Source: Candidatus Nanoarchaeia archaeon | GTDB taxonomy: Archaea > Nanobdellota > Nanobdellia > Woesearchaeales > UBA10216 | Reading direction: 5' to 3' | DNA: 46,646 bases | Assembly: GCA_028279045.1 (NCBI GenBank) | Contig: JANQSZ010000013.1 | Coordinates: forward strand, 1-46,646 | Part shown: in pieces, positions 3,321-46,646 of the stretch | Position numbering within the stretch: the stretch's first letter is position 1 | Layout of the letters: every line of letters begins with the position of its first letter | The notes under the pieces: generated by a model | What the model was told of the DNA's origin: nothing | Databases searched by the model: none | Seen by the model: only the letters and a program-made list of their open reading frames with translations | Translations under genes and position numbers: made by a program

Positions 3321-6300
3321 AATCCATTACTCGTACAACATTTCCTGTTGGGCTTCCGCCAATCAAATCATCAAAGAAAGCAATAATTCTCGCAAACAGT
3401 CCTGCTTCAACACACTGATCAGCAGCACAGATGTTGCTGTTACATTCATAATTGTTAATGCAAGCAGCACCATCTCCCTTCATATCTTCGATCGTACCGC
3501 CAATTTCGCAGTATGATCGCTCACCATCGTGAGTAAATCGTGTCGTCGTTGGAATGCATTCTCCGTTCGACGTACATCCACTACAATCAGGAAGTGGTTC
3601 TTCAGCACCTGCGCAAGGGTTCTCAAAGTAGCTAATCGTCACACATTCTCCTTCAACACACGTAGCGCGTAAATGATCGCTTCCATCTGCACATTCGTAC
3701 AATCCGCAATCTGCGTGAGCTGAACATTCTTCAGGGTATTCTTCATCATCCATAGCAGGCTCTTCAACAATAATATCTGTGAACGACGTACCAGCAATTT
3801 CTATTTCAGTTCCTACCAAGTGATAATCTTCATAGTTAGCAAGGACACGTGCTGCTCGTCGTGTATCTAAGTCACCGTAACCATCTACAAGCAAGCCCCA
3901 GAATCCGTTTCCATGTTCAAACAACTTAATACGTCCTTTGTCTTCTTGCGTACCAGCATGACAGTCAACAGGATTGCCCATCAATTCAAGCGTTGCATGA
4001 TTGTTACAACCACTGCCAACAACTATTGCGTTTTGTGCTCGTATGTCAGGAACTTCTGAAGCAAGTTTGGCAGAACCAACTTCAATTGGCCCGGTTTCAT
4101 AGTAAACAATGCCGTCTTCTCCTTCAACAGCAACTCTTGCTGCAAATTGCAACGAAGTGGCAATATCAACTGAAGCAATCACGTCACTTGGAGACGCTGT
4201 ATCACCAACAACAATGATTGCATTAAACTCTCCTTCATCAACAAATGGTTCAGGATAGCTAGAAAGGTCATAACCTGTCATTGCTTCTTCCTCACATTCA
4301 TAAAATTGACAATCATTTGATGGATCTCGTGCAACGTAGCTACCGTCCGGACACAATTTCAAATCTTCAGTACAGTAAGACTCTTCAGGAACTTCTTCTT
4401 CTGGAACAGTGGTGACATCAGGCAGTTCTGCGTAAGGGCTTGCGACATACACCATTGGGTTTTGTTGTCTGTAAGGGTGTCGAACATTAAATGCGTCAGA
4501 GGAATCAGATTCTGATTCGGTGTATCGTGCTCCGCTCGAAGCGTAGTGTCTCAGCCCTTCCCTGTCATTTGGATCATGTACACCTATAATCGGGCTATAC
4601 ATGTCAAGGTCAATATGATCGTTCTCTCCTTTGAATATAACAAATGTTTTTGTTGTTGCAAGATCTTCTTTGTGTCGCGGACTCCACATACCGAGACCAG
4701 GTTTGTTTTTGTATTCTGCTGGAATGGCATAGAAATTAACTCCTTCAGGTCCGAGGAAGTCAATGTGTAAGCCCGAATGGGTTATTATCCAAGGCCATCC
4801 ATCAGAAAGTTTGCCGTCGCCAGTTCGGTCAACAAAAATCTCAAAATCATCTGTTGATGGAGCAAGGTGTCCTGAATAGTATACTTGAAAAGTGTTGCCA
4901 CCAATGTTAATAGTGCCAACACGTCCGTTTGATCCAAAAACAATTGCTCTTTCAATTATCTGGCCGCTTCCCAAATTCTTGAACTTCAGAACAGCGTCCT
5001 CTTGGTTTGGGCTGTCTGCTCCTTTGTACTGCATGATGTAGCTGTTTGCAGTTCCGTCTCCATCAGCAGTGAGCGAAAAGTAGTCATTCTTTGCAATAGA
5101 GGCAAGTTCATTAGCGACATATCTTCTATCGTCATCCCCAAACGTTATTTGTTCTCCGTCAGCACTTCCCGATAAACCGGTTTGTGCAAAAAGGACAAAG
5201 TCATCAGGATCTCCTCCTGCAGCGGAGTGAAATCGATATGTAGTTCCGCCCAGGGTCAATGTTGTAGTATACCGCATAGTAATTATTCCAAGTGGGCGTT
5301 CGACTATCTCTCCGTTAATGAGTTTGAATTTTGCAACAGCATCCTCAGTGTAAGGATTGTCTGTTCCTTTGTACTGAACGCGATATACCACTTCCCCATC
5401 AGATAGCTGGAAGTATTGATCTTTGTGAATGGGTTGATTTTGTGCGATAATTGGATCACTCGATGTTCCTGCAGCAAATCCGGGTCGATAATGTGCGATA
5501 GGCAGTGAAACTCTCTTGCCATCAGCATCCAAGAAGTTTAAGTTGTATTGGTCTTTTCCGCGAGAATCAATATACACAAGTTCGTGCTTTTGTTTCTCCA
5601 ATCCACCATAGTAAATATCCCACGAATCAAGCAATGCTTGTGGTTCATCAAGAGCAAGGCTCAGCAAATCTCCTGGTTGGAGGTAGATGTCATCCTCAGC
5701 ATACACATCAATAATGATTTTGTTAATGGAAACGCGTTCCCCGTTATCATTACCAGTTATGGTAACTGTCGCATCGTCAATAAGTTCACTATTTACTACA
5801 AGGTTTTCTGATCCGTCAGCGCTACCGCCGATGTTTGTATCGTGAAGGATTACTTTGTGCGCTCCCAAGTAGAATTCTACTTTTCGTACGCCGCCTGCAA
5901 TGTCTTGAACCAAGGTTTCCCGAACGCCAACGTGAGATCCATCAGCTAGTCCGTCTGTGGATCCATCAACAAGATTATCAGTAAATTCCCCGTTGACATT
6001 GAATTTAACTACCGTGTCACTAACAAAAGTAGCAGTAACCTCGTAATCCCTACCACTTACAGTATATGTTTTAGTTTCTCCTTCGTCTAAAACATCCTCT
6101 ATTGCTCCCCGCATTAATGTAAGTTTAACATCGTTTTTAGCAGCTCGTTCTGCTTTTACAATCGAATATGATCTATCCATGATGGTTATTCTCTCGTCTT
6201 CAAAGTCTTCCAAACGAGTTCCCACAATATCAGATTGTGCAAGTTCATCAAAGTTCAAAATGTATTGTCCGATGTTATTTCCGCTTGCGATATACAAGAA

Positions 6301-9293: not shown

Positions 9294-10066
9294 CACTCTA
9301 CGTTATCGGCATCGGATTATTTGACGAGAAAGACATCTCAGTCCGCGGTCTAGACTTTGTTAAACAATGTGACTATCTCTATTTAGAGAACTACACCAGT
9401 TTGATGAAAGCAACCAAAGAAGATCTTGAAAAATTCTACGGCAAAGAAATAATCAGCGCAGAACGCGAGTTGGTCGAGCAGTCAGATGAAATTGTCGAGC
9501 GTGCAAAAACAAAAAACGTCGGCGTGTTAGTCATGGGCGATCCGCTAACAGCAACGACTCACCTTGCTTTGCTAATGACAGCAAAAGAAAACAACGTCGA
9601 AACGATTGTTGTCCACAACGCATCTGTTATTTCAGCAGTTGGCGCAACCGGATTGCAGCCATACAAATTCGGTAAGATGGTAACCGTCCCTTTTCCCGAT
9701 TATAATTACCGTCCCGAGTCATATTACCACGTCATTAGACAGAATCAAACACTCGGCTTACACACGTTACTTTTACTCGATCTCAAACCCGTCGATAAGA
9801 AGTTCATGTCCGTTACCGAAGCTATTGATTTGCTCGAGCAAATCGAGTCCAATCAAAATATAGGCGTCATTACGCCGCAAACAATGTTGATTGCCTGCGC
9901 TCGGTTAGGTTGGCCAGACCAAAAAATCGTGTACGGCACTCCGTCCCAGATCAAGAACATGGATTTACCATCTCCACCTCACGCACTCGTTGTGCCAGGC
10001 CAGCTCCATTTCTCTGAAGAAGACGCTCTGAAGGAATTTCTCGTCGAGCCTCCTCGGAATTCTTGA
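9290..10066 (+). CDS. dphB: Diphthine synthase (diphthamide biosynthesis methyltransferase)
   Basis: MTLYVIGIGLFDEKDISVRGLDFVKQCDYLYLENYTS, GDPLTATTH, SVISAVGATGLQPYKFGKMVTVPFP are Dph5 hallmarks. Confidence 0.95.
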   Translation: MTLYVIGIGLFDEKDISVRGLDFVKQCDYLYLENYTSLMKATKEDLEKFYGKEIISAERELVEQSDEIVERAKTKNVGVLVMGDPLTATTHLALLMTAKENNVETIVVHNASVISAVGATGLQPYKFGKMVTVPFPDYNYRPESYYHVIRQNQTLGLHTLLLLDLKPVDKKFMSVTEAIDLLEQIESNQNIGVITPQTMLIACARLGWPDQKIVYGTPSQIKNMDLPSPPHALVVPGQLHFSEEDALKEFLVEPPRNS

Positions 10067-10131
10067 AAGCAAAAGCTTTATATATACCCTGGAAACTGTA
10101 TTTTCCTGCGTATAGCTTACAGGTGCAATTA

Positions 10132-10401
10132 ATGGATAACGACGAAATTTTCAACGTGTTTTTTAGAGAGAAGCCAGCTATGATGCTGATCGGCTTGAAG
10201 AATGCAAAAGGTGCAGTCTATGCGTCTTCCCTCGCTAAGTCTGTCGATTGTACGTATTCTCATGTTGTAAAAATTCTGCAAGAGATGCAGAAAGCCGGCT
10301 TGGTAAATTTCGAAAAGCAAGGTCGTCTCAAGCTCCTTACCTTAACCAAGAATGGTCAAGATGTTGCTGAGCACATGGATCAGATCCGAAATCTTCTGTA
10401 G
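10132..10401 (+). CDS. Small winged-helix (MarR/ArsR-like) DNA-binding protein
   Basis: MLIGLKNAKGAVYASSLAKSVDCTYSHVVKILQEMQKAGLVNFEKQGRLKLLTLTKNG. Start chosen at 10132, downstream of the TATA-like element at about 10075-10087. Confidence 0.75.
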   Translation: MDNDEIFNVFFREKPAMMLIGLKNAKGAVYASSLAKSVDCTYSHVVKILQEMQKAGLVNFEKQGRLKLLTLTKNGQDVAEHMDQIRNLL

Positions 10402-13653: not shown

Positions 13654-13704
13654 TTTTTCATTAACTTTATATACTAAAACTTATTCTATAATACACCTAA
13701 GAAA

Positions 13705-14616
13705 ATGTTTGTAGTGGACGATTCAAAGGGAAAATTGCAATCTCTTCCTGCTTTTGCTATCAAGCCAGGCGAAGCAGGTAACTTTAGTTCTGATCTCGCA
13801 CAGAAGATCATGAAACTACTTGTTAAGAAGCCAATGTACCCTATTGAAATCACCAAAGAACTCAAGGTGCATGAGCAGAAGATATACTATCACATTCGCA
13901 ATCTAGAAAAGATGGGCGCAATCAAGGTTGTGAAGTCAGAACAACGCCAAGGCGCAACTGCAAAGTATTATGCAGCAGTACAACCAGCATTTGTTATTTC
14001 TTTCAAGGATCTAGAAACAGCAACCAAACCATTACACGCCAAGGAACAAACCCCTTTACACCCATTTATCGAAGATGGCTTGTTGAAAGCAAAGATTATT
14101 GTTGGTAGCCCAGATCCGCACGGTCCTGAAAAAGCTCGTGCAAAGGATGGCTACTTTGGCGTCGATCTCGGCTTGTTTCTCGGTACATTTTTGCAGTACA
14201 CTCCACAACTCTCTGTCAAACTCGACACCGAAACACGCGAAGAAGATTTGCAAGACAATCTCATTTTGATCGGCGGCCCTGTCGTAAATCAAGTTACCGG
14301 TAAAGTAAACGCAAAACTCCCAGTGAAGTTTGACGCAAACAACACTATAACGTCAACATTGTCAAAAAATTCCTATCCAGAAGAAGAGATTGGCATTATT
14401 GTGAAAGCAAAGAACCCATTCAACCAGGATAAAGAAGTTCTTGTTGTCGCTGGCAAGCGCCATTCAGGAACGCGCGCAGCTATTCTTGCGTTCATGCGTC
14501 ACTACGATGAATTAATGAAAGGCAACATCCATAAACGTTCCACCCTTGCAAGAGTTGTCGAAGGAATCGATCTCGACTCCGACGGCATTGTCGACGACAT
14601 CGAGTTCAGGGAATAA
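13705..14616 (+). CDS. Winged-helix DNA-binding domain fused to an S-layer-like domain
   Basis: N-term LAQKIMKLLVKKPMYPIEITKELKVHEQKIYYHIRNLEKMGAIKVVKSEQRQGATAKYYAA (wHTH). C-term NLILIGGPVVNQVTGKVN...VLVVAGKRHSGTRAAILAFMRHYDELMKG...VVEGIDLDSDGIVDDIEF resembles archaeal S-layer protein domains. No signal peptide. Confidence 0.7.
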   Translation: MFVVDDSKGKLQSLPAFAIKPGEAGNFSSDLAQKIMKLLVKKPMYPIEITKELKVHEQKIYYHIRNLEKMGAIKVVKSEQRQGATAKYYAAVQPAFVISFKDLETATKPLHAKEQTPLHPFIEDGLLKAKIIVGSPDPHGPEKARAKDGYFGVDLGLFLGTFLQYTPQLSVKLDTETREEDLQDNLILIGGPVVNQVTGKVNAKLPVKFDANNTITSTLSKNSYPEEEIGIIVKAKNPFNQDKEVLVVAGKRHSGTRAAILAFMRHYDELMKGNIHKRSTLARVVEGIDLDSDGIVDDIEFRE

Positions 14617-14646: not shown

Positions 14647-15204
14647 ATGTCTCTCGAAGAACAAATTGAAACCGATGATGTTCTAGCGTATCAAATAGCT
14701 GATCGTCTCGGCGGCGTTTTCGATTCACTTACTGCAGATATGGTTTTCGGCGCTATTACCGTTGGCACGATTGCAGTTCTGGTTTACGGAGCAGTGAAAA
14801 TTCAATCATTAATTGCGTGGCGAGATCGCAGGCGCGTTGAATATCTTGACAACAGAACTCCCTTTGTTGCGTTAACAGGATATTCTGCTGTAAACCTTAT
14901 CAGCAAAGCAAAAAGATCGCGCACAGTAGATGCAGGAAGGGTTCGAGGGATAGTCAATCACGAAATAGATTTCACAATGGAAGTTGAAATGTCTGAGCGA
15001 GGGATTGTTGAAATTCCTCTCCCAAAAGATACTTCAGATTTCTACAAAGCATATGGAATCAGAAATCGGAGCGGACTTGTAGGGAAAGATGTCGCAGTGT
15101 ATTTTGATGGAAACAGACCTGCAGCTGTAATCCCGCTAAACATCGGCGCTACCTATACTTCTGCAGATATAGAATTTATTGAAAGAATTACAAAAGATTT
15201 CTAA
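14647..15204 (+). CDS. Hypothetical single-TM protein
   Basis: One hydrophobic segment FGAITVGTIAVLVYGAVKIQSLIAW followed by a soluble domain; no family recognised. Confidence 0.55.
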   Translation: MSLEEQIETDDVLAYQIADRLGGVFDSLTADMVFGAITVGTIAVLVYGAVKIQSLIAWRDRRRVEYLDNRTPFVALTGYSAVNLISKAKRSRTVDAGRVRGIVNHEIDFTMEVEMSERGIVEIPLPKDTSDFYKAYGIRNRSGLVGKDVAVYFDGNRPAAVIPLNIGATYTSADIEFIERITKDF

Positions 15205-36957: not shown

Positions 36958-38634
36958 CTATCGTTTTCTTCTTCGCCGTACCGCAAGCACGATCAAGAGG
37001 ATCAAGATCAGGATGCCACCAAGAAGGGCATAGGTGATGTAGTCAGGTCCCCGTAATACAAGAGTAAACGTTGCTTCTAATTGCTTAATCAAAGAATTCT
37101 CGCGCGCACCATAAAGTGCTCGAATAAGTACACGTTCATTATCTTCCAAGTCTTCGCCTTCAAGTTCAGCACGAACGCGCAGTTCTCGTGTTTCACCAGG
37201 ATCTAGCTCTGCAATACTCTCCAATCCATAGGTGATTCTCTCGCCAGCAACAATAACATCAATAATTTCCAAATCTACAAAGCAGGTTTGATCAACAAGG
37301 TTTACGGTCTTCACATAGAAGAACGGTCTCCGATATTCCACTCCTTCCAAGTCAATTTCACAGTCATCGCGTACATCAACAACATCGACTTGGCGATCAC
37401 ACGTCAAACAGAAGGATTCTTGCAATGTTCTTTCTAGTGATCCAGGGGATTCACCATAAATAGTAAACGCATCCACGCTCAGTTGATCTGTGGATATACT
37501 TCCGACGTCATACGTCACGGTTTTAATTTCTCCTGCATCAATAAACACAGGATCAACATCACCCACTGTCTGCGTACCGTCAGTAGACGAAAGCGCGAAC
37601 GTACCTCTTGCATACGTTACCAAATCTTCATTGTTTGCGTACGTAACTTCAAGCTGTCCTGTAGCTCTATTATATTGTATAGCATCATAGTCCAAGCTTA
37701 CTGAAACAACAGGCAAATAAAACAAGTCCAGTGCTTCAACTTGCGAGATAGATCCTTGTGGTTGTCGTGCTCCTTGCGCAAACTTAACGAACACGCTGAT
37801 TCCAACTTGTCGCCGGATAAATGTAGCAGTTCCTACAAGTTCGTTTCCAATAAGCACACCAACTTGAATATCGCTATCTTGAATGTAATCAGCAATCACC
37901 GAAGGCACATTATCATTACCAATAAACAGCACCGGCTGTGATCCTGACATCACTTCCTTTTCAATAAACTCTCCATTCGTAAGAATAACTTGTGCAGAAG
38001 GATTAATTGCTTGGTATCGCTTAGTAATCTCCACATTATTACTAAATCGATCTCCATTATCGTTGATAATTTCTGGATTGTACACATCCAGAACACTTCT
38101 TACTTCTCTATCGGTCTGCCCGAAAATAAGAACACTGTCAACTGTCCGAGTTGATAAAAAGTCATCAATTTCCCCGATGTTGTCTTCGTTTGCAAACAAC
38201 ACATAGCTGTTCGAAACAACAGCATACGGAGCTGCAGCAACAGCATTGTACCCGTACCGGTCATCGATGATTACATAGTTTGTGATATCATCAAGTTCTG
38301 CTGCGAGTCCAAGATTAATATTGCTAAAAGTGATTTCGTCTGCTTGGTAGTCACGTGCTTCCACCACAGATTCATATCCAACAAGTTGCGGTACATCTTC
38401 AGAACTCACGATCAATAGGTTCGACCCTGATCGGATGTTGTTCAATAATATAGGACCGTGTCTCTGACTTACTAAAAAGACAGGCGATATTCCCTCGAGT
38501 TGCCCGTACAACATTACTGAGTAGACATCTTTCCAATCTTGAGAATTTGATACAACGTTAGCGTAGGAGTCTTGGGCTGACACAGCACTTGCTAACATCA
38601 GTACAATCACTATGCTTAACAATAGCGTTTTCAT
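36958..38634 (-). CDS. Membrane-anchored surface protein, possibly with a cell-wall-binding-repeat-like N-terminal region
   Basis: Signal peptide MKTLLLSIVIVLMLASAVSA; VVSNSYVLFANEDNIGEIDDFLSTRTVDSVLIFG...QVILTNGEF pattern; C-terminal TM YALLGGILILILLIVLAVRRRRKR. Confidence 0.7.
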   Translation of the reverse strand: MKTLLLSIVIVLMLASAVSAQDSYANVVSNSQDWKDVYSVMLYGQLEGISPVFLVSQRHGPILLNNIRSGSNLLIVSSEDVPQLVGYESVVEARDYQADEITFSNINLGLAAELDDITNYVIIDDRYGYNAVAAAPYAVVSNSYVLFANEDNIGEIDDFLSTRTVDSVLIFGQTDREVRSVLDVYNPEIINDNGDRFSNNVEITKRYQAINPSAQVILTNGEFIEKEVMSGSQPVLFIGNDNVPSVIADYIQDSDIQVGVLIGNELVGTATFIRRQVGISVFVKFAQGARQPQGSISQVEALDLFYLPVVSVSLDYDAIQYNRATGQLEVTYANNEDLVTYARGTFALSSTDGTQTVGDVDPVFIDAGEIKTVTYDVGSISTDQLSVDAFTIYGESPGSLERTLQESFCLTCDRQVDVVDVRDDCEIDLEGVEYRRPFFYVKTVNLVDQTCFVDLEIIDVIVAGERITYGLESIAELDPGETRELRVRAELEGEDLEDNERVLIRALYGARENSLIKQLEATFTLVLRGPDYITYALLGGILILILLIVLAVRRRRKR

Positions 38635-38776
38635 CCCTAACCCAAAGATGCAGCCGTCACATTCCTATTTAAACTTTTGTATCCGACCGTGACATATAAA
38701 TAAGCCCTAGTATAGTGTTTCATAACATTTATATAGCTGGGTGTCCTCCCGCATACTATTGTGGGGTGGTCACTAC

Positions 38777-39190
38777 ATGGTGATCTTATTCGATCAGTTT
38801 CATTTACCTGATGACATATTTGAAGTAATATTTGCAACAAATCAACAAAAAATCGTAGCAAAAGTTCTTATCCAAGGTATGAAGGAAAAGGGCGGCGAGA
38901 TGAACAAGACAGAAATGTCGTACTTCGCTACCAAACTTCATGAAGGCGAGCTCGTTACTGAAATTGACGAACCTGGCTATCAAGGAAAACAAGTAAAACT
39001 CTCCTACAATAAAAGACAATTCTATGATCGTATCCTAACTCCAATGAAGAGCATGGGTTTGATTGATTACGACATGTACAAGAAGACGTACAGAATTTCA
39101 GATTCTTTCAACAAAGTAATGATTAAGATCGGCTTGATGTGGCTACGAGAATTAAAAAAGCCAACGAGCGATTTTGAAGTCAACGCTTAA
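38777..39190 (+). CDS. Putative winged-helix protein (hypothetical)
   Basis: QKIVAKVLIQGMKEKGGEMNKTEMSYFATKLHEGELVTEI...FYDRILTPMKSMGLIDYDMYKKTYRISDSF looks wHTH-like. TATA-like atttatata at about 38729; start refined to 38777. Confidence 0.55.
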   Translation: MVILFDQFHLPDDIFEVIFATNQQKIVAKVLIQGMKEKGGEMNKTEMSYFATKLHEGELVTEIDEPGYQGKQVKLSYNKRQFYDRILTPMKSMGLIDYDMYKKTYRISDSFNKVMIKIGLMWLRELKKPTSDFEVNA

Positions 39191-40362
39191 CGTCGTTTTT
39201 TTCTTCCTAATACAATGAGCCGTACGAGGAAGAGTATGGTTATCGCCATTACTACATACAGAAGCAGTGGCAGGAACGCAAGCTCTGTGCTTTCGCCCAC
39301 TGGCTTAACATTCAGTATACTTCCTCTCTCAAAAGTAATCTTGTTGTTATAATGCACACGACCACTTATCAAGTGCCGTCCTGGCGATTCTGGTGTATAG
39401 AAAAATTCAATATCTTGTCTTGTTCCCGGACCTACTGTAAATTGTTCTGATTCCAGCACTTCGACAACTTGATCATCAATCCGTGCAGTACCTTTGAACC
39501 GTGCAGTAACTGATCGCGCTCCTCCATTCTCAAATTGCGCAATAACCGAAACAGGTTCGCCGACTTCTGCAGCTTTCTTGTTCCGTAAACTAATCAGTTC
39601 TCCCCGATCTGCAATCTGTCCGGGTTCTACAATGGAAAACGTAAATTTCTCTCCAGCACCACATTCTTCAATAACCACGTTTGCCCAATACTGGCCAACG
39701 GCCAATCCCTCGCTCGTTACCGGAATGATTTGATTGTCTTGTGTTGTCGGCAAGAGTGTATCGCCGCTTGCTGTTCTACTAAGCAGTAATGTTTCTTGAA
39801 ATTGATCCCAAATATCAAGTCGAACAGTTGGTGTTAATCGAGTATTCCCATCATTGATAATCGTTGCTTTGACATCTACAGGAAATCCAATTTCTGCATC
39901 GCTTACTCCAAATCCTCCTGCACGACATGCAACAATTTGTTGCCCTGTAAGAGAAAGTGTAATCTGTCCGGTTACCGCAGTTCGAACAAATCCTCCTGCG
40001 CGTCCTTCCAGTTGTTCAGTTGGACTCGGATCTGCAATGAATCGAATGCTTGCATCATAATCACCAATCGGTATATCATCTGGTGGCTCTGCAATAACTT
40101 TGACCTGCAGTGGTTCTGATTCAGAAACTTGTAATGTTCGATTCTCAGCATCAGTAGTAATCCAGTCTGAAGCAGGTCCTTCTACTTCGAACGTAACTCC
40201 CGTAGGTTCAGGGCTATTAGTAGTTAGCGTTACGAGTCGTTCTGCATACCCTCCTCTCAGCACATTATCAAGATTAAGAGTTCCTGGGCTCATTCCTAAG
40301 CTAGCTCCAAGTACAGGGCTCGCAAACAACAATAAAAGCACTAGTGGGAGGAGTATTTTCAT
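39187..40362 (-). CDS. Membrane-anchored surface protein with Ig-like/NEW3-like domains
   Basis: Signal peptide MKILLPLVLLLLFASPVLG; beta-rich repeats (RLVTLTTNSPEPTGVTFEVEGPASDWI); C-terminal TM FLPLLLYVVMAITILFLVRLIVLGRKKRR. Confidence 0.7.
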   Translation of the reverse strand: MKILLPLVLLLLFASPVLGASLGMSPGTLNLDNVLRGGYAERLVTLTTNSPEPTGVTFEVEGPASDWITTDAENRTLQVSESEPLQVKVIAEPPDDIPIGDYDASIRFIADPSPTEQLEGRAGGFVRTAVTGQITLSLTGQQIVACRAGGFGVSDAEIGFPVDVKATIINDGNTRLTPTVRLDIWDQFQETLLLSRTASGDTLLPTTQDNQIIPVTSEGLAVGQYWANVVIEECGAGEKFTFSIVEPGQIADRGELISLRNKKAAEVGEPVSVIAQFENGGARSVTARFKGTARIDDQVVEVLESEQFTVGPGTRQDIEFFYTPESPGRHLISGRVHYNNKITFERGSILNVKPVGESTELAFLPLLLYVVMAITILFLVRLIVLGRKKRR

Positions 40363-41435
40363 TGAGTATTTTCCTCCTTTTTTTGTTTATAAATCTTGTC
40401 GTGCTGTTTATGGTGATGTCTCCACATCAAAAGACCGACAATAAGGATTGCAATCAATGCTGCTGCTTCTGATGCAGCAATCCTCGCTCTCCCACCATTC
40501 ACAACACAGCGATGATCAATTGCATCCTGAAAATAAAGACAATTCAGCGATACACATTCGTGATTCTTTGCTTTCTCATGCGGTTGACAATCCAGCGGAA
40601 CACAATTTCCCTCACCAAGCACTTCGTCTTCTTGACAATTAAGTTCCACGCAACGATGATTAATGATGTGCTGTGTATCGGTACAGTTCAACGCCAAGCA
40701 ACGATGGTCAGCAGCATACTCATCATCTGCACACGCTAGCGGAACACACTGGTGATTCTGCGCAAAATAATCATGCTTACAGTCCAGCTGCTCACAGGTA
40801 TGATTCAGCAAAAATTCGTTTTCTTCGCAGTTCAACTCAACACAATCGTTAGTGATGCATTCTTCATTCAAATTGCAATGACTTGATTCGCAGCATTCAT
40901 AGCTCACACACCGGTTCTCATCAATAAATTGACAACTACCACATTCTAAAGGAGAGCATTTTCCGTCAAGGCAATACAGTCCTTCTGCGCATGCAAATCC
41001 TGGTGCACATTCTAAAATTGGAACAGTGAAAGAGTCCGGTGGGCAGGTTTCGTATTCGAGTCCAAAGAAAATTGTCTCGTAAATGCGTTCGCGTTCATTT
41101 GTCGCTGCAGAAAAACAAGTCCGGTATAAGATAGATCCATTAGCAGACGGTGCAGGTGCAGTACCTTGCACAACAGCGATTGCACTTTTATCACGCCCGA
41201 TGTAAATTCGAGATCCGTTATATCGAGCGAGCACATGATCTGTTCTGTTGTCATAGATCACTGCAGAAACAATCTCCAACACCTCATCACCCTTATTACT
41301 AATATTAAGCGTCCAGTTCAGTTCGCCGCCTCGTACACATTCATTATCCGGGCAGGCATAATCTCCAGAGTAAATCAAGGCGCTCACAGAGCTGAGCAAA
41401 ACAAACAGTGCTGCAAAATACACAACAAGTTTCAT
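40359..41435 (-). CDS. Membrane-anchored surface protein with about seven tandem 16-aa Cys/His repeats
   Basis: CVELNCEENEFLLNHT|CEQLDCKHDYFAQNHQ|CVPLACADDEYAADHR|CLALNCTDTQHIINHR|CVELNCQEDEVLGEGN|CVPLDCQPHEKAKNHE|CVSLNCLYFQDAIDHR|CV, followed by a C-terminal TM. Confidence 0.8.
   Translation of the reverse strand: MKLVVYFAALFVLLSSVSALIYSGDYACPDNECVRGGELNWTLNISNKGDEVLEIVSAVIYDNRTDHVLARYNGSRIYIGRDKSAIAVVQGTAPAPSANGSILYRTCFSAATNERERIYETIFFGLEYETCPPDSFTVPILECAPGFACAEGLYCLDGKCSPLECGSCQFIDENRCVSYECCESSHCNLNEECITNDCVELNCEENEFLLNHTCEQLDCKHDYFAQNHQCVPLACADDEYAADHRCLALNCTDTQHIINHRCVELNCQEDEVLGEGNCVPLDCQPHEKAKNHECVSLNCLYFQDAIDHRCVVNGGRARIAASEAAALIAILIVGLLMWRHHHKQHDKIYKQKKEENTQ
40503..40844 (-). repeat. 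Coding tandem repeat, 48-nt period (16 aa), about 7 copies
   Basis: Direct reading of the 358-aa protein; the repeats are diverged in sequence but constant in length. Confidence 0.7.
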
Positions 41436-43222
41436 CCGGTGATCGCCCCGACAATGATGTTTCCTTCACATCCTCCTGCGACTCCAGTGGGCGTGCGTAC
41501 TCGCCAGTACGTGCTATTGCGATCATTATCCTCTATAACATCATTAATACGTTGATACAATGTAAAATTAACAATCGGTGTTGCCTCTCCTGACAAATTA
41601 GTCATGCCGTCATAATCAGTGGGATCAGTTGTGTTAGTCGCAAATCGCTCAAATCCCACAGAAATGTTTGTATCACGTTGACAGTCAAACGACAAGTTAT
41701 CCCCGGGGTTCGAACCGTATCCTTCAAGGGTGATGTTTGTATTGATATTTCCAAAATTGGTCAGTATCAGTTCAAGTTCCCGTGAAGTATTAGTGAAATT
41801 AATCGTGCCATAGTCGAGCAGATCTGTTGATGCGTTCAGCGCAAGTAATTCATTTACAGTTGTATCGATGTGATTCTGTTGATCGCCGCTACCATTATTC
41901 TCTACAGTATACGTACAGCGCCATGACGCATTGTTTGCGTAATACTGTACTGCAAAATTGCAAGTATAGTTTGCCCATTCAGTGCTATTGACGCTTGTAC
42001 ACGAGCTGTTATGATAATGATCATTGTTGTCATTGTCTCCTCCCGGCGACTTTACCGCTTGATCATACAGTGTTACATTGACAGCAAAAATATCACCGAT
42101 GCTTTCCACGTCTGTAATTGATGCATTGCACATTACAGTCTGCAACCCGCCAGGGTTCAATATAATAGGATCTATAACAGACATAGCAGTAATGCTCACA
42201 GGAACATTACCCAGTATAGATAAATTAAATTTCGAGCTGTTCCCCATACGTACTGAACTTCCTGAATCGCTACAGTTAACACTCCAATTGTACGAGCCGA
42301 CAGTCAGGTCTGCAGTCATATTTATTTCGGTATCGAGCTGAATAGTGCTATCTGTCGTATTAACAGTATCGTTAATTACCAGACTACAGCTGCCTACAGG
42401 TCCTGTGTGTTCGACCATGTATGTAAAGTTGACAACGCCAGCTGTTTCTGCAGTGTTGTTCGCCGGTGTGAGCAACGTGATGAATGGTGGTGTGCTAATT
42501 TCCACGCTATTATTAACACGGAAATCCGTGTTCAATCGTTCAAGGATAACAGAGTCGCTCAAACATCGCACAGTTACGGAGAAGTTACTTACCCCAGTTG
42601 CGTTCGCGAGAATTGTCCAGTCTGTTCTGTTGACAACTCCCTGGGCCAAATTGCCAATGTATCTTGTCACATTATTGCCCGGTTGCAGCACAAAAGATTC
42701 ATTATTGGAAATTGTTAAATGAAACTCACATCCGACGCCATCTTGACGTAATATGTATGTGCGCGCTTCTAGGGTAATATTAGTGCCAATAGAATGCACC
42801 GTATGGTTGTTCGGTTTGATAATGGTTACATTAGGCTCCGACCCTCTACTAAGGTTGAGCGTCACGTTTCCAAACGTCGTTGTAGATTGGAGCGTTCTTG
42901 TTGTGTTACCAAAATGCGTGTCATTCCAAGAGAAAATAATAATGTTATCGCCGTCATCTCCCTCAATGGTTGCCGAGTAACTTCCCCGGAACTGAGGGAG
43001 TGGTGGGGCATTCGTAGATGACATCGCTGTTGTAAGCGAGTCAGTATTGTTGATAAACACAGGATAGCCGTTCGCCACCCCATTTTCATCAGTCCCATTA
43101 TGGAAAACGCGGCCAGCGACGTTGTGAGGGCTCGTTTGAGCTAGTACTATCCATGCAAACATCAGCAAGACAAGAAAAACCCCAAGGATGGAAGCAGAGA
43201 CACGCTGAGTCAACGCTTCCAC
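41432..43222 (-). CDS. Secreted surface protein with Ig-like repeats, rich in N-glycosylation sequons
   Basis: Hydrophobic N-terminus ASILGVFLVLLMFAWIVLAQ; many NxS/T sites; repeats such as TPPFITLLTPANNTAETAGVVNFTYMVEHTGPVGSCSLVIND. ATGA overlap with the next gene. Confidence 0.7.
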   Translation of the reverse strand: MEALTQRVSASILGVFLVLLMFAWIVLAQTSPHNVAGRVFHNGTDENGVANGYPVFINNTDSLTTAMSSTNAPPLPQFRGSYSATIEGDDGDNIIIFSWNDTHFGNTTRTLQSTTTFGNVTLNLSRGSEPNVTIIKPNNHTVHSIGTNITLEARTYILRQDGVGCEFHLTISNNESFVLQPGNNVTRYIGNLAQGVVNRTDWTILANATGVSNFSVTVRCLSDSVILERLNTDFRVNNSVEISTPPFITLLTPANNTAETAGVVNFTYMVEHTGPVGSCSLVINDTVNTTDSTIQLDTEINMTADLTVGSYNWSVNCSDSGSSVRMGNSSKFNLSILGNVPVSITAMSVIDPIILNPGGLQTVMCNASITDVESIGDIFAVNVTLYDQAVKSPGGDNDNNDHYHNSSCTSVNSTEWANYTCNFAVQYYANNASWRCTYTVENNGSGDQQNHIDTTVNELLALNASTDLLDYGTINFTNTSRELELILTNFGNINTNITLEGYGSNPGDNLSFDCQRDTNISVGFERFATNTTDPTDYDGMTNLSGEATPIVNFTLYQRINDVIEDNDRNSTYWRVRTPTGVAGGCEGNIIVGAITG

Positions 43223-45891
43223 CCGTGAAGTTTTTTTGTGGAACGTACACGTTTTGGTTTATACGGCACCAGTGATGAATAAAACTTCAGGAAAATAAGG
43301 ATAGGGAGGAGCAGAATTGCTATAATGAGCGCAATGAAAAGGAGCGTATCTGTTCCTGTCGGGATAAACTTCTCTTTCTCAAATACAATGAAGTCTCTTC
43401 GTTCTTCTCCTACAGTGATATCCATAGTGAATGTTTTGTCGTGAATATAGAACGTAATTGCATCTTTGCGTTGCGCGTGCAGTACTACAGAATACGTTCC
43501 TGGGCTTGGTCCACCCGTTACTCCTTCAATGGTTTCTCCTGTTCTATTAATAACAACACGATATGGTGTACCTGCTGCTACTTCAAGTCCTTCTTCTAAG
43601 AAGATTCTACCATAAACAATATAGCGCTCCTGCAGTGTTGTTACTCGTGGCGGAGGTACAAGTTTCTCGACGTCAACTGTCCGATTGAGTGATATAGCAA
43701 AGAACGAGAAGCTTCCAGTAACAGCGCTATACGCTGCTTCTCCGTCTTCAACTTGAAGCAGAGTTGTTTCCAGTTGTTCCCATTTATTATTCTTAAAATG
43801 CAGCAGCACAACTTCTTCTGGTGTGGCCTCCAATCCGTCCAGCCACGACATCGGCACACTAAATGATACTATTGCTGATTGTGCTGTCGCACTACCAAGT
43901 AAGTCAAGTTCCAAGTATTTGTAAACAGGAAGGCCGACAGGGATTGTTTCACTCGGTCGTGTTCCGAAGTGCTTCACGATAAGATCTTCGTTGTTAAGGA
44001 TTCCGCGATATGAGACCGCAACAGAGTCAACTGGCGTGTTCAAGTCGCTCACGTCAATAGTTCGTCGGAGTGTTGCAGCTCCACCGCCACCGCCCCCTCC
44101 ATCAGAACCGCCGCCACCGCTCGATGAAGAAGCTGGTTGGGGAGGATCAATAAAGAAGTAGAACGTTTCGTTGATAGTTACATTTGCGTCTGTTATGCTC
44201 ACATTGATTTGATGTGATCCTACGTCTGCCGAGGTTGGTGTCCAGGTAATGACTCCGGTGTTTCGATCAACAGACAAGTCATTTGGCGATTTTGTAAGGT
44301 TAAATATCAGGCTGTCGTTATCCGCATCTAGCACAGGAATTGTATACGTTATCGCGTCTTCTGCAAAGAATGTTGTGTTTACCGAGGGTAGCACAGGTAT
44401 ATCGTTTCTATTGCTAATCAAGACAGTTATGTTGTAAAGATTAGTGTTATTTCCATCAGAGACATTAATGATAAGTGATGTCTCTTGAAGATCATTATAG
44501 CCTACAACATCATCGTTAGGTATCCATGAAATGTACCCTGATGCATTTACAGTTGCTTCTATAGGTCCTGAATAGAGTGTGTAAATAACATCGTCTCCGT
44601 CTGGGTCTGTTGCATTAATCTGATGTGTATACAACACATCTTCAATTCCTTCCCATGGAGCAGTGTTATTCACTGCAGGTGCGTCCGCAAGGTCTAGTAC
44701 GGTTAAATTGTATGTTTGTGTTGTGCTATTCGTTCCGTCATCTACAGTAATAGTGATGTTGTACACGCCGACGTCAGCTCCTTCAGGGAACCAGTTAACT
44801 ACACCAGAACTATCAACTTCAAGTGCTTCTGGTCCTTCTACCAATGTAAAGATCAAATCATCGAATTCTGTGTCTTCATCACTAACCACCATCTGGTACG
44901 TGTAGAAGCTGTCCTGCGATGTAGTAACAATCGGAACAGATACAATAGACGGTGGATCTGGAGTTTCCTCAATGATCAAGGTGTAGTCGTGTTCTACAGT
45001 ATTTGTTCCATCTGACGCTGTCAGGATAATTTCTGTATCGCCAACATCATCTGCGTCTGGGGTGAAGTTAACAACGCCCGTGCTGCTATTAATGGCAAAT
45101 CCTGCTGGTGCTTGTAATACTGCATATACCAACGCAAGTCCTTCTGGGTCAACGGCAACTGCTGTATAAACATATGGCATATCTTCATACGCAGTCTCAT
45201 TTCCTTCTGACGTGAAATCTGGCGGATCATTAATGTCTTCAATCCGCAGCGTATAGTTTTGCGTATCATGCAGCTCTCCATCACTAACATTTATTTCTAC
45301 ACTATAATTACCCGTGGTGACGTATGTAGCGTTCCATTGCACCACCCCGTTGCTGTCAATGGTTAAATTTTCAGGACCTATTGTTATATTATATGTGACC
45401 GCATCATCGTTTCGCTCAAAGATTTGCACTTGATATTCATAAAGATCTTCATTGAATCCTGTTTCGATTGGTGACGATATGATGTTTGGTGCAAAGTTCG
45501 GCAAACTCGTATTCAGTACAAGATGGAAATCATGAATTACACCCGACAAAGTTACATTTCTCTCTACTGAATTGTTCGTGCCCGTCTCCCCGAACAATAT
45601 CCACGATCTAACTTGTATGAGGTCGCTGCTGTTCCCCGCTATTGGCGTAGAATATTTACCAGGGTCTGGTCCCAGTCCAGTGCTACCATTCGCAGTCCAG
45701 CCTGTATCAAGATTAGTAACCGAGAAGTTCATGTTGTTGACTTGCGTTACACCATCCTGTTCAAAGATGATTCCATCTATTGCGTACGGAACAACTTGTC
45801 CTTGTACAGCTACCGCTGCTAAGATGAATAGTATCGCTAGGATACTAATCGTTTTGGGGTTCAACCCGCCACTGAGCATCGCTCGTAACAT
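43210..45891 (-). CDS. Multi-domain surface protein: five cadherin/He_PIG-like repeats, Gly-rich linker, PGF-pre-PGF-like domain, C-terminal TM
   Basis: Repeated units of the form DPPxFTS...EDxxYxYxxxAxDPxG...xSGxVxFTPxxxDVG; SSSSGGGGSDGGGGGGGAA linker; VYKYLELDLLGSATAQSAIVSFSVPMSWL...YSAVTGSFSFFAIS; TM LLFIALIIAILLLPILIFL. Confidence 0.8.
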   Translation of the reverse strand: MLRAMLSGGLNPKTISILAILFILAAVAVQGQVVPYAIDGIIFEQDGVTQVNNMNFSVTNLDTGWTANGSTGLGPDPGKYSTPIAGNSSDLIQVRSWILFGETGTNNSVERNVTLSGVIHDFHLVLNTSLPNFAPNIISSPIETGFNEDLYEYQVQIFERNDDAVTYNITIGPENLTIDSNGVVQWNATYVTTGNYSVEINVSDGELHDTQNYTLRIEDINDPPDFTSEGNETAYEDMPYVYTAVAVDPEGLALVYAVLQAPAGFAINSSTGVVNFTPDADDVGDTEIILTASDGTNTVEHDYTLIIEETPDPPSIVSVPIVTTSQDSFYTYQMVVSDEDTEFDDLIFTLVEGPEALEVDSSGVVNWFPEGADVGVYNITITVDDGTNSTTQTYNLTVLDLADAPAVNNTAPWEGIEDVLYTHQINATDPDGDDVIYTLYSGPIEATVNASGYISWIPNDDVVGYNDLQETSLIINVSDGNNTNLYNITVLISNRNDIPVLPSVNTTFFAEDAITYTIPVLDADNDSLIFNLTKSPNDLSVDRNTGVITWTPTSADVGSHQINVSITDANVTINETFYFFIDPPQPASSSSGGGGSDGGGGGGGAATLRRTIDVSDLNTPVDSVAVSYRGILNNEDLIVKHFGTRPSETIPVGLPVYKYLELDLLGSATAQSAIVSFSVPMSWLDGLEATPEEVVLLHFKNNKWEQLETTLLQVEDGEAAYSAVTGSFSFFAISLNRTVDVEKLVPPPRVTTLQERYIVYGRIFLEEGLEVAAGTPYRVVINRTGETIEGVTGGPSPGTYSVVLHAQRKDAITFYIHDKTFTMDITVGEERRDFIVFEKEKFIPTGTDTLLFIALIIAILLLPILIFLKFYSSLVPYKPKRVRSTKKLHGWKR

Positions 45892-46646
45892 CGAAATAAT
45901 AACCTCGTCCTGGTTGTAGTGTGAGGAAGTCTGGATTCATTCCGCTCGGGAAATATCCAAATCCTGCAAAGTACTGCGTAACTTCAAATCGATCAAGTGT
46001 TTCATTCCATCTATCGATAAATGCAACTGATCCTTCTGGTGATACATTAATAGGCCAAACAGGATCATTCACAGCCGCTGGAAGGATCGTTTCATTCGCA
46101 GAGTACCATCCCTGCACATTCCAACCCGTGTCTAAACTAATATTGAATATTTCTGTAGGTAGTTCTCCTACTACAGTAAGTGAACAACTCTGGTTAAGTT
46201 CAATCCAATAACCAACTCCTCTCTCCAAGCTTGTAAACGATTCCGATCCTGTATCAGGTGTCCAATTACCCTCTATGTTGAACGTTCTCTCAAACAATCC
46301 TGACGTAGTATTGAGTCTATAGATTGAGTGCACACACTGCGGTATCGTAAACTCCAAATTGTATGCGCTGTTCGTTCCATTATTCAATTCGTATTCTGAA
46401 ATATTAAGTGGCAACGTAAACAGGTGGAAGTCCGTACTATTTTCTGGTTCGTACGTCAAATTAATACTCATCTTTCCAATAATCTTTGACGTGCTGGCGT
46501 TTGCTCCGCCTCTCGCAGATGCGATCTTGTAGAAGTGTACTTTATCCCCTGCAGTATCTGTATCAGTATACGTCGGCGTGCTTACCGTTGCGAATGGTGT
46601 GCTGCTAAAATCATCCTGGAAGCTATCTTTTCTGAAAACATAGTAT
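45845..46646 (-). CDS. Surface protein, 3' part (5' end beyond the window)
   Basis: Hand translation upstream of the track's M at 46471 stays open to the window edge (YYVFRKDSFQDDFSSTPFATVSTPTYTDTDTAGDKVHFYKIASARGGANASTSKIIGK-MSINLTYEP...), an FnIII-like end. Overlaps the next gene by 47 nt (35 nt if that gene starts at 45879). Confidence 0.65.
   Translation of the reverse strand, partial: YYVFRKDSFQDDFSSTPFATVSTPTYTDTDTAGDKVHFYKIASARGGANASTSKIIGKMSINLTYEPENSTDFHLFTLPLNISEYELNNGTNSAYNLEFTIPQCVHSIYRLNTTSGLFERTFNIEGNWTPDTGSESFTSLERGVGYWIELNQSCSLTVVGELPTEIFNISLDTGWNVQGWYSANETILPAAVNDPVWPINVSPEGSVAFIDRWNETLDRFEVTQYFAGFGYFPSGMNPDFLTLQPGRGYYFDVTSDAQWRVEPQND

Follow-up and report, generated by a model that had tools for sequence, protein, structure and literature searches.

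The regulator gene and its protein product

The window analyzed here is the whole 46,646-bp stretch of DNA, taken from a 1.0-Mb assembly in 31 contigs. It contains a gene whose product joins a winged helix to an S-layer-type domain (Table 1). The protein begins with MFVVDDSKGK and runs into the winged helix with no hydrophobic leader by reading of the sequence. The absence of a signal peptide claimed in the initial annotation was thereby upheld, and the protein lacks the secretion signal that marks S-layer proteins. The N-terminal winged helix was likewise recovered by two Pfam models at residues 29-94, HTH_20 (29.3 bits; cut-off 27) and TrmB (PF01978, 29.0 bits; cut-off 25.6), which identifies it as a TrmB-type winged helix. 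It includes a conserved HEQKIYYH motif (residues 56-63) and matched PH1932 (PDB 1uly) with E-values of 3.3e-11 by profile and 5.7e-7 by fold. The sugar-binding C-terminal domain of TrmB gave no Pfam match in the regulator, the C-terminal half of which is PF05124. AlphaFold modelled the whole protein with a pLDDT of 85 and the S-layer-type domain alone with a pLDDT of 80.6 and a pTM of 0.81, and a search of viral folds (BFVD) with the regulator returned HTH matches only.

Table 1. Window coordinates of the regulator gene, its promoter elements and protein segments, and of the domain used for comparison
Feature	Position	Strand	Basis
TATA box TTTATATA of regulator gene	13666..13673	+	Sequence; position relative to operator
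Predicted palindromic operator TACTAAAACTTATTCTATAATA	13672..13693	.	14.9 bits; 14.1 with held-out matrix; best in window
Second operator-like site, over start codon	13695..13716	.	12.3 bits; 10.1 with held-out matrix; second-best in window
Regulator gene	13705..14616	+	303 aa; winged helix and S-layer-type (PF05124) domain
Winged helix-turn-helix, residues about 28-92, ArsR/TrmB-like	13786..13980	+	Pfam HTH_20, TrmB; PDB 1uly
S-layer-type domain, residues about 114-274, uninterrupted	14044..14526	+	PF05124; hhalign; 9FSA fold match
GSPDPHGP loop after first strand of S-layer-type domain	14104..14127	+	Regulator alignment; 7-residue gap in secreted proteins (hhalign)
GGPVVN motif (GGPCVN in S-layer proteins)	14272..14289	+	Alignments, hhalign
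AGKRHSGT motif	14449..14472	+	Alignments, hhalign
C-terminal DxDxDG loop (DLDSDGIVD)	14569..14595	+	Conserved in regulators only; outside hhalign match
Homologous S-layer-type domain, residues 1121-1281 of secreted 1440-aa protein (comparator only)	3790..4272	-	Profile match

The C-terminal domain belongs to the S-layer family by profile and fold

We compared the C-terminal domain with curated models and found that S_layer_C (PF05124) matched residues 171-265 with 49.5 bits (cut-off 23.9; E=5e-13) and that S_layer_MJ (NCBIfam TIGR01564) matched residues 172-264 with 40.2 bits (cut-off 25). Both scores exceed their cut-offs, so that similarity in the second half lies well beyond chance. Homology to secreted S_layer_C proteins extends to the first half (HPFIEDGLLKAKIIVG...) as well: when 11 regulator domains were aligned by hhalign with 9 secreted S_layer_C proteins, the match covered both halves (residues about 114-274; 137 columns, 27% identity) with a probability of 98.8 and an E-value of 7.7e-17, which is optimistic as the value of a single comparison. 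The best non-HTH match of the whole-protein AlphaFold model in the PDB was 9FSA (E=6.8e-7), a crystal structure from the S-layer anchor of M. voltae, and 9FSA was again the best match of the domain modelled alone (E=1.1e-7, TM 0.62 on the target). The 9FSA structure comprises aa 24-75 and 484-576 of the anchor and was crystallised as the part responsible for anchor dimerisation (PMC11410804). The further PDB neighbours of the domain, BcsB of cellulose synthase, the N-terminal regions of GH67 and GH115 enzymes and, weakly, GH84 enzymes, are all carbohydrate-linked, at a distant 10-15% identity.

Profile and model comparisons thus confirm that the domain belongs to the S-layer family. The initial annotation had described an S-layer-like block here and had named an unrelated fold or background-level profile similarity as grounds for dropping it; neither was found, because the profile match spans both halves and 9FSA is the top non-HTH structure. 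A chance or compositional match could appeal to the Pfam scan, which reports the second half only, but with two curated models above cut-off, a profile-profile alignment through both halves and the same top structure for both AlphaFold models it is hardly conceivable. Two details of the earlier description were revised. The tail GIDLDSDGIVDDIEF falls outside the S_layer_C match, and the 1440-aa protein with which the blocks had been compared, and which does carry a homologous domain, is encoded on the minus strand (7632 to 3310).

The regulator shares with archaeal S-layer outer or anchor domains (PF05124; 9FSA) the motifs PF(I/V)xxGxLNaxIxVG, GGPxxN and AG...T, and differs from them in its cytoplasmic location, its fusion to a winged helix and its uninterrupted domain. 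Other differences lie in short motifs. The GSPDPHGP loop is nearly invariant among regulators and absent from secreted S_layer_C proteins, and is a candidate ligand-binding loop. Regulators have AGKRxxGT where most secreted S-layer proteins have AGxxxxDT. The DxDxDG tail, also missing from the secreted homologues, has D289, D293, G294 and D297 invariant in the regulator alignment and is a possible metal site. According to the alignment and the AlphaFold model, the invariant residues specific to regulators fall in loops after the strands of a Rossmann-like domain. The ligand site of such domains is usually in loops at the strand ends, and these loops may form a ligand site in the regulator.

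Besides the regulator, the host genome encodes three S_layer_C proteins. The 1440-aa protein of the window is secreted, and in the S-layer protein of a 904-aa frame a large insertion parts the domain, with profile positions 1-51 far from positions 86-175. The third, at L121:5961-6767 (minus strand), is small and secreted and has its S_layer_C domain uninterrupted; similar proteins were noted in relatives (L248-L257), and with the host's own they are about 184-270 aa long. They occur next to large S-layer proteins whose copy of the domain is interrupted by several hundred inserted residues, and the small uninterrupted form is possibly the ancestral form of the S-layer protein.

Regulator genes are linked to glmS, glmM and glmU

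Of 279 genomes sampled from the phylum, 79 had a full-length orthologue of the regulator in a profile search; with the single protein as query, matches were found in 36 of 59 close genomes, in a few of these to the HTH part only. Nearly all genomes compared are metagenome assemblies, and related genomes are not independent. The closest relatives on public contigs (best 80 of 462 loci) were mostly labelled Candidatus Woesearchaeota. Two contigs with Woesearchaeota-like regulator loci were labelled Aminicenantes (L086) and Methanosarcinales (L077), and are probably misbinned or mislabelled assemblies. One relative was found in Naiadarchaeum (Undinarchaeota, another DPANN phylum), with glmS head-to-head with the regulator gene. 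By these sequence comparisons the 303-aa protein is a conserved regulator of DPANN archaea. We found no paper on a fusion of wHTH and S-layer domains in the open-access literature.

We examined the neighbourhood of the regulator genes and found glmS, glmM or glmU within 8 kb in 77 of 118 loci. The pairs formed by the regulator and a glm gene at the 118 loci were divergent in 127 of 128 cases, despite varying gene order. Counted by genome, glmS lay within 8 kb in 47 of the 79 regulator genomes, was divergent in all 47, and this arrangement extended over 24 of 34 families. Clustering of the neighbours of 79 relatives (from the best 80 of 462 loci) placed an opposite-strand glmS close to the regulator in 40; in other relatives glmM and glmU belonged to the same divergent cluster, and 40 further loci, mostly more distant, had the same linkage in changing gene orders. 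The linked enzymes exceed the curated cut-offs as glmS, glmM and Arch_glmU. GlmS itself was detected in 64/79 regulator-positive and 86/200 regulator-negative genomes (Fisher p=5e-9, not corrected for relatedness); the 15 regulator genomes without a GlmS match above cut-off include some that are incomplete or have glmM or glmU beside the regulator.

In the window's own family, unlike these 77 loci, the regulator is unlinked from glm genes. Its neighbours there are dph5, a small HTH gene, a DHH gene and uS15, and the host's glmS is on another contig together with an IMPase-like gene and glmU. The regulator was near dph5 or dph5 neighbours in about 25 of 80 relatives (best 80 of 462 loci), and only at loci without glm linkage. 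We also noted a small winged-helix protein below the Pfam cut-offs (10063-10401, plus strand of the window); in about 25 loci a relative of it follows dph5 and precedes the regulator. The next gene after the regulator (14647-15204, plus strand) encodes a 185-aa protein that has no Pfam match and, judged by eye, a single membrane segment.

A predicted operator is common to regulator and glmS promoters

We searched the sequences upstream of regulator genes at 100 non-redundant loci, the window excluded, with a motif finder of our own and identified a 22-bp palindrome, YATTAwAAA-N4-TTTwTAATR (consensus TATTAnAAAAATTTTTnTAATA). Its log-likelihood was 538 as compared to 51-88 in shuffled sets, and it often starts 22-42 bp before the regulator ATG. 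Among 67 promoters in which a TATA box was clear, 60 have the start of the predicted operator at the box or downstream of it, which is where archaeal repressors typically bind. The two top-scoring sites in the 46,646 bp of the window are both at the start of the regulator gene, the better one directly after the TATA box. With a held-out matrix, trained on glm-linked loci only, both the host's own regulator gene (14.1 bits) and its unlinked glmS operon (15.1 bits) had a site at p about 0.0025; the site of the operon (L120:8241-8262) precedes the first ORF in our annotation of the operon by about 65 bp.

Control of glmS by the regulator predicts that an unlinked glmS carries the operator only in genomes that have the regulator. 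We therefore compared the upstream regions of unlinked glmS genes from 16 regulator-positive and 40 regulator-negative genomes (39 of them long enough), with the held-out matrix and a site threshold of p<=0.01. The operator was present in 10/16 genomes with the regulator and in 0/39 without it (Fisher p=2.7e-7); a strong site was missing from the other six regulator-positive promoters. A matrix built from all loci gave 12/16 and 2/39, respectively, at p<0.02. The operator is thus common to regulator and glmS promoters and is missing where the regulator is missing. Within the host's own family, one genome (G003) has neither regulator nor glmS site, and another (G011) has the site with no regulator seen; since the latter is 89% complete, its regulator may be missing from the assembly.

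Further targets were sought in the host genome. Its own glmM was rejected as a target, with no operator site found, and so was a genome-wide regulon drawn from a relaxed pattern with 2 mismatches, which gave 7 sites as compared to 13 for a control pattern. Since the relaxed pattern is no commoner than the control, pattern matches by themselves do not define the regulon. Two weaker candidates were seen: a good match (14.7 bits) at L243:1501-1522 (C18), about 20 bp before a DUF2090 (PF09863) gene (L243:1542-2438) that is possibly a third regulon member, and a site upstream of a secreted-protein gene (C8).

The protein is proposed to repress UDP-GlcNAc synthesis genes

Comparison of the genomes establishes the domain homology, the glm linkage and the co-occurrence of regulator and operator at unlinked glmS. 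The regulator most likely controls the genes of UDP-GlcNAc synthesis and not the surface coat itself. In our judgement it is quite probably a one-component regulator of that pathway, an autoregulated glm repressor with the S-layer-type domain as sensor and dimeriser. The winged helix would bind the 22-bp palindrome both in the regulator's own promoter, between TATA box and gene start, and upstream of the glmS operon. A dimer would thus sit between TATA box and transcription start and shut off both its own gene and the glm operon. We consider it an autoregulated repressor because it most likely blocks transcription from the operator position, which points to repression rather than activation; binding as a dimer is presumed. 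The S-layer-type domain would dimerise and probably read an amino-sugar metabolite. The domain would alter the DNA affinity of the regulator in response to an abundance or shortage of UDP-GlcNAc or of a phosphosugar intermediate, and expression of glmS, glmM and glmU would be matched to the demand of a glycosylated cell surface. Ligand sensing by the domain is suggested by its regulator-specific loops and its distant carbohydrate-linked PDB neighbours, and UDP-GlcNAc as the ligand is a guess; UDP-GlcNAc and GlcN-6-P are the first candidates because they are the end product and the first product of the pathway.

The S-layer homology also allows the reading of the initial annotation, a factor that senses or tracks S-layer protein; what it reads could be an unexported precursor, and S-layer genes would be its targets. 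Because the homology is real, contact with a precursor is conceivable, and S_layer_C proteins occur in nearly all genomes of the phylum (262/279). However, the regulator is missing from about 70% of these genomes, the genes linked to it are glm and not S-layer genes, and with the all-loci matrix a significant operator was found in 0/20 promoters of S-layer genes from regulator-positive genomes (median 2.2 bits). In the host genome the promoters of two S-layer genes and of the small secreted S_layer_C gene score below zero. We regard an S-layer-sensing role as very improbable; of the initial annotation, the cytoplasmic wHTH protein with an S-layer-family domain stands and the sensing or tracking role is not supported. 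A weaker form of its other suggestion, self-assembly on DNA, would be dimerisation, by analogy with the homologous M. voltae domain.

That analogy, together with a palindromic operator that calls for a dimer, also fits a domain that is a dimerisation scaffold only, in a glm repressor with no metabolite ligand, controlled by its own level or by another protein. Regulators nevertheless keep the near-invariant GSPDPHGP loop, the KR pair and the DxDxDG motif that their secreted homologues lack, and a mere scaffold would not need them; for this reason we find a scaffold alone unlikely. The DxDxDG motif could in turn speak for a different signal, with glm control as one output. Its invariant D289, D293, G294 and D297 form an EF-hand-like loop that could take a divalent metal, and the dph5 and uS15 neighbours in the host's family, as well as the dph5 context of the relatives, could hint at a translation-linked signal. 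Against this, the glm linkage persists across 24 families with shuffled gene orders, while the dph5 context is confined to loci that lost that linkage, and a signal other than an amino sugar appears quite improbable.

Within the preferred reading of a glm repressor, a more specific proposal is that the domain is an amino-sugar nucleotide sensor through which UDP-GlcNAc (or GlcN-6-P) feeds back on its own synthesis genes in DPANN archaea, and that it had a carbohydrate-binding ancestor in common with S-layer anchor domains. If so, the coat domain may bind GlcNAc-containing surface glycans. We put this forward tentatively, as a possibility that is more doubtful than not.

Comparison with known regulators

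The protein resembles archaeal wHTH regulators of the ArsR/TrmB type (PH1932, 1uly; Phr, 2p4w; TrmB) in having a winged helix above the Pfam cut-offs and a predicted operator near the TATA box in repressor position. TrmB proteins sense sugars. The present regulator differs in its putative S-layer-type sensor, in its predicted amino-sugar synthesis targets and in having no match to the sugar-binding domain of TrmB. In bacteria, glmS is controlled by the glmS ribozyme, GlmR/YvcK, NagC and GlmY/GlmZ, with feedback on the synthesis of GlcN-6-P and UDP-GlcNAc. The purpose proposed here, feedback control of that synthesis, would be the same, but the DPANN protein is an unrelated one-component regulator with predicted DNA binding. 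We found nothing on glmS regulation or control of UDP-GlcNAc synthesis in archaea in the open-access literature, where the subject appears little studied. To our knowledge, regulators with predicted targets are rare in uncultured DPANN archaea. The regulator, its predicted operator and its predicted target genes are together open to in vitro testing. They tie an S-layer anchor fold to a putative cytoplasmic regulatory role beside amino-sugar metabolism, and offer a lead on the origin of the anchor domain and on what it may bind.

Elsewhere in the window, a secreted 558-aa protein (36958-38634, minus strand) shows a Rossmann-like pattern in repeats and has a membrane anchor at its C-terminus; it has no Pfam match and by eye recalls cell-wall-binding repeat 2. 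A surface protein (40359-41435, minus strand) in which short Cys motifs recur, and which likewise has a C-terminal membrane anchor, belongs to a cluster of secreted proteins at 36958-46646.
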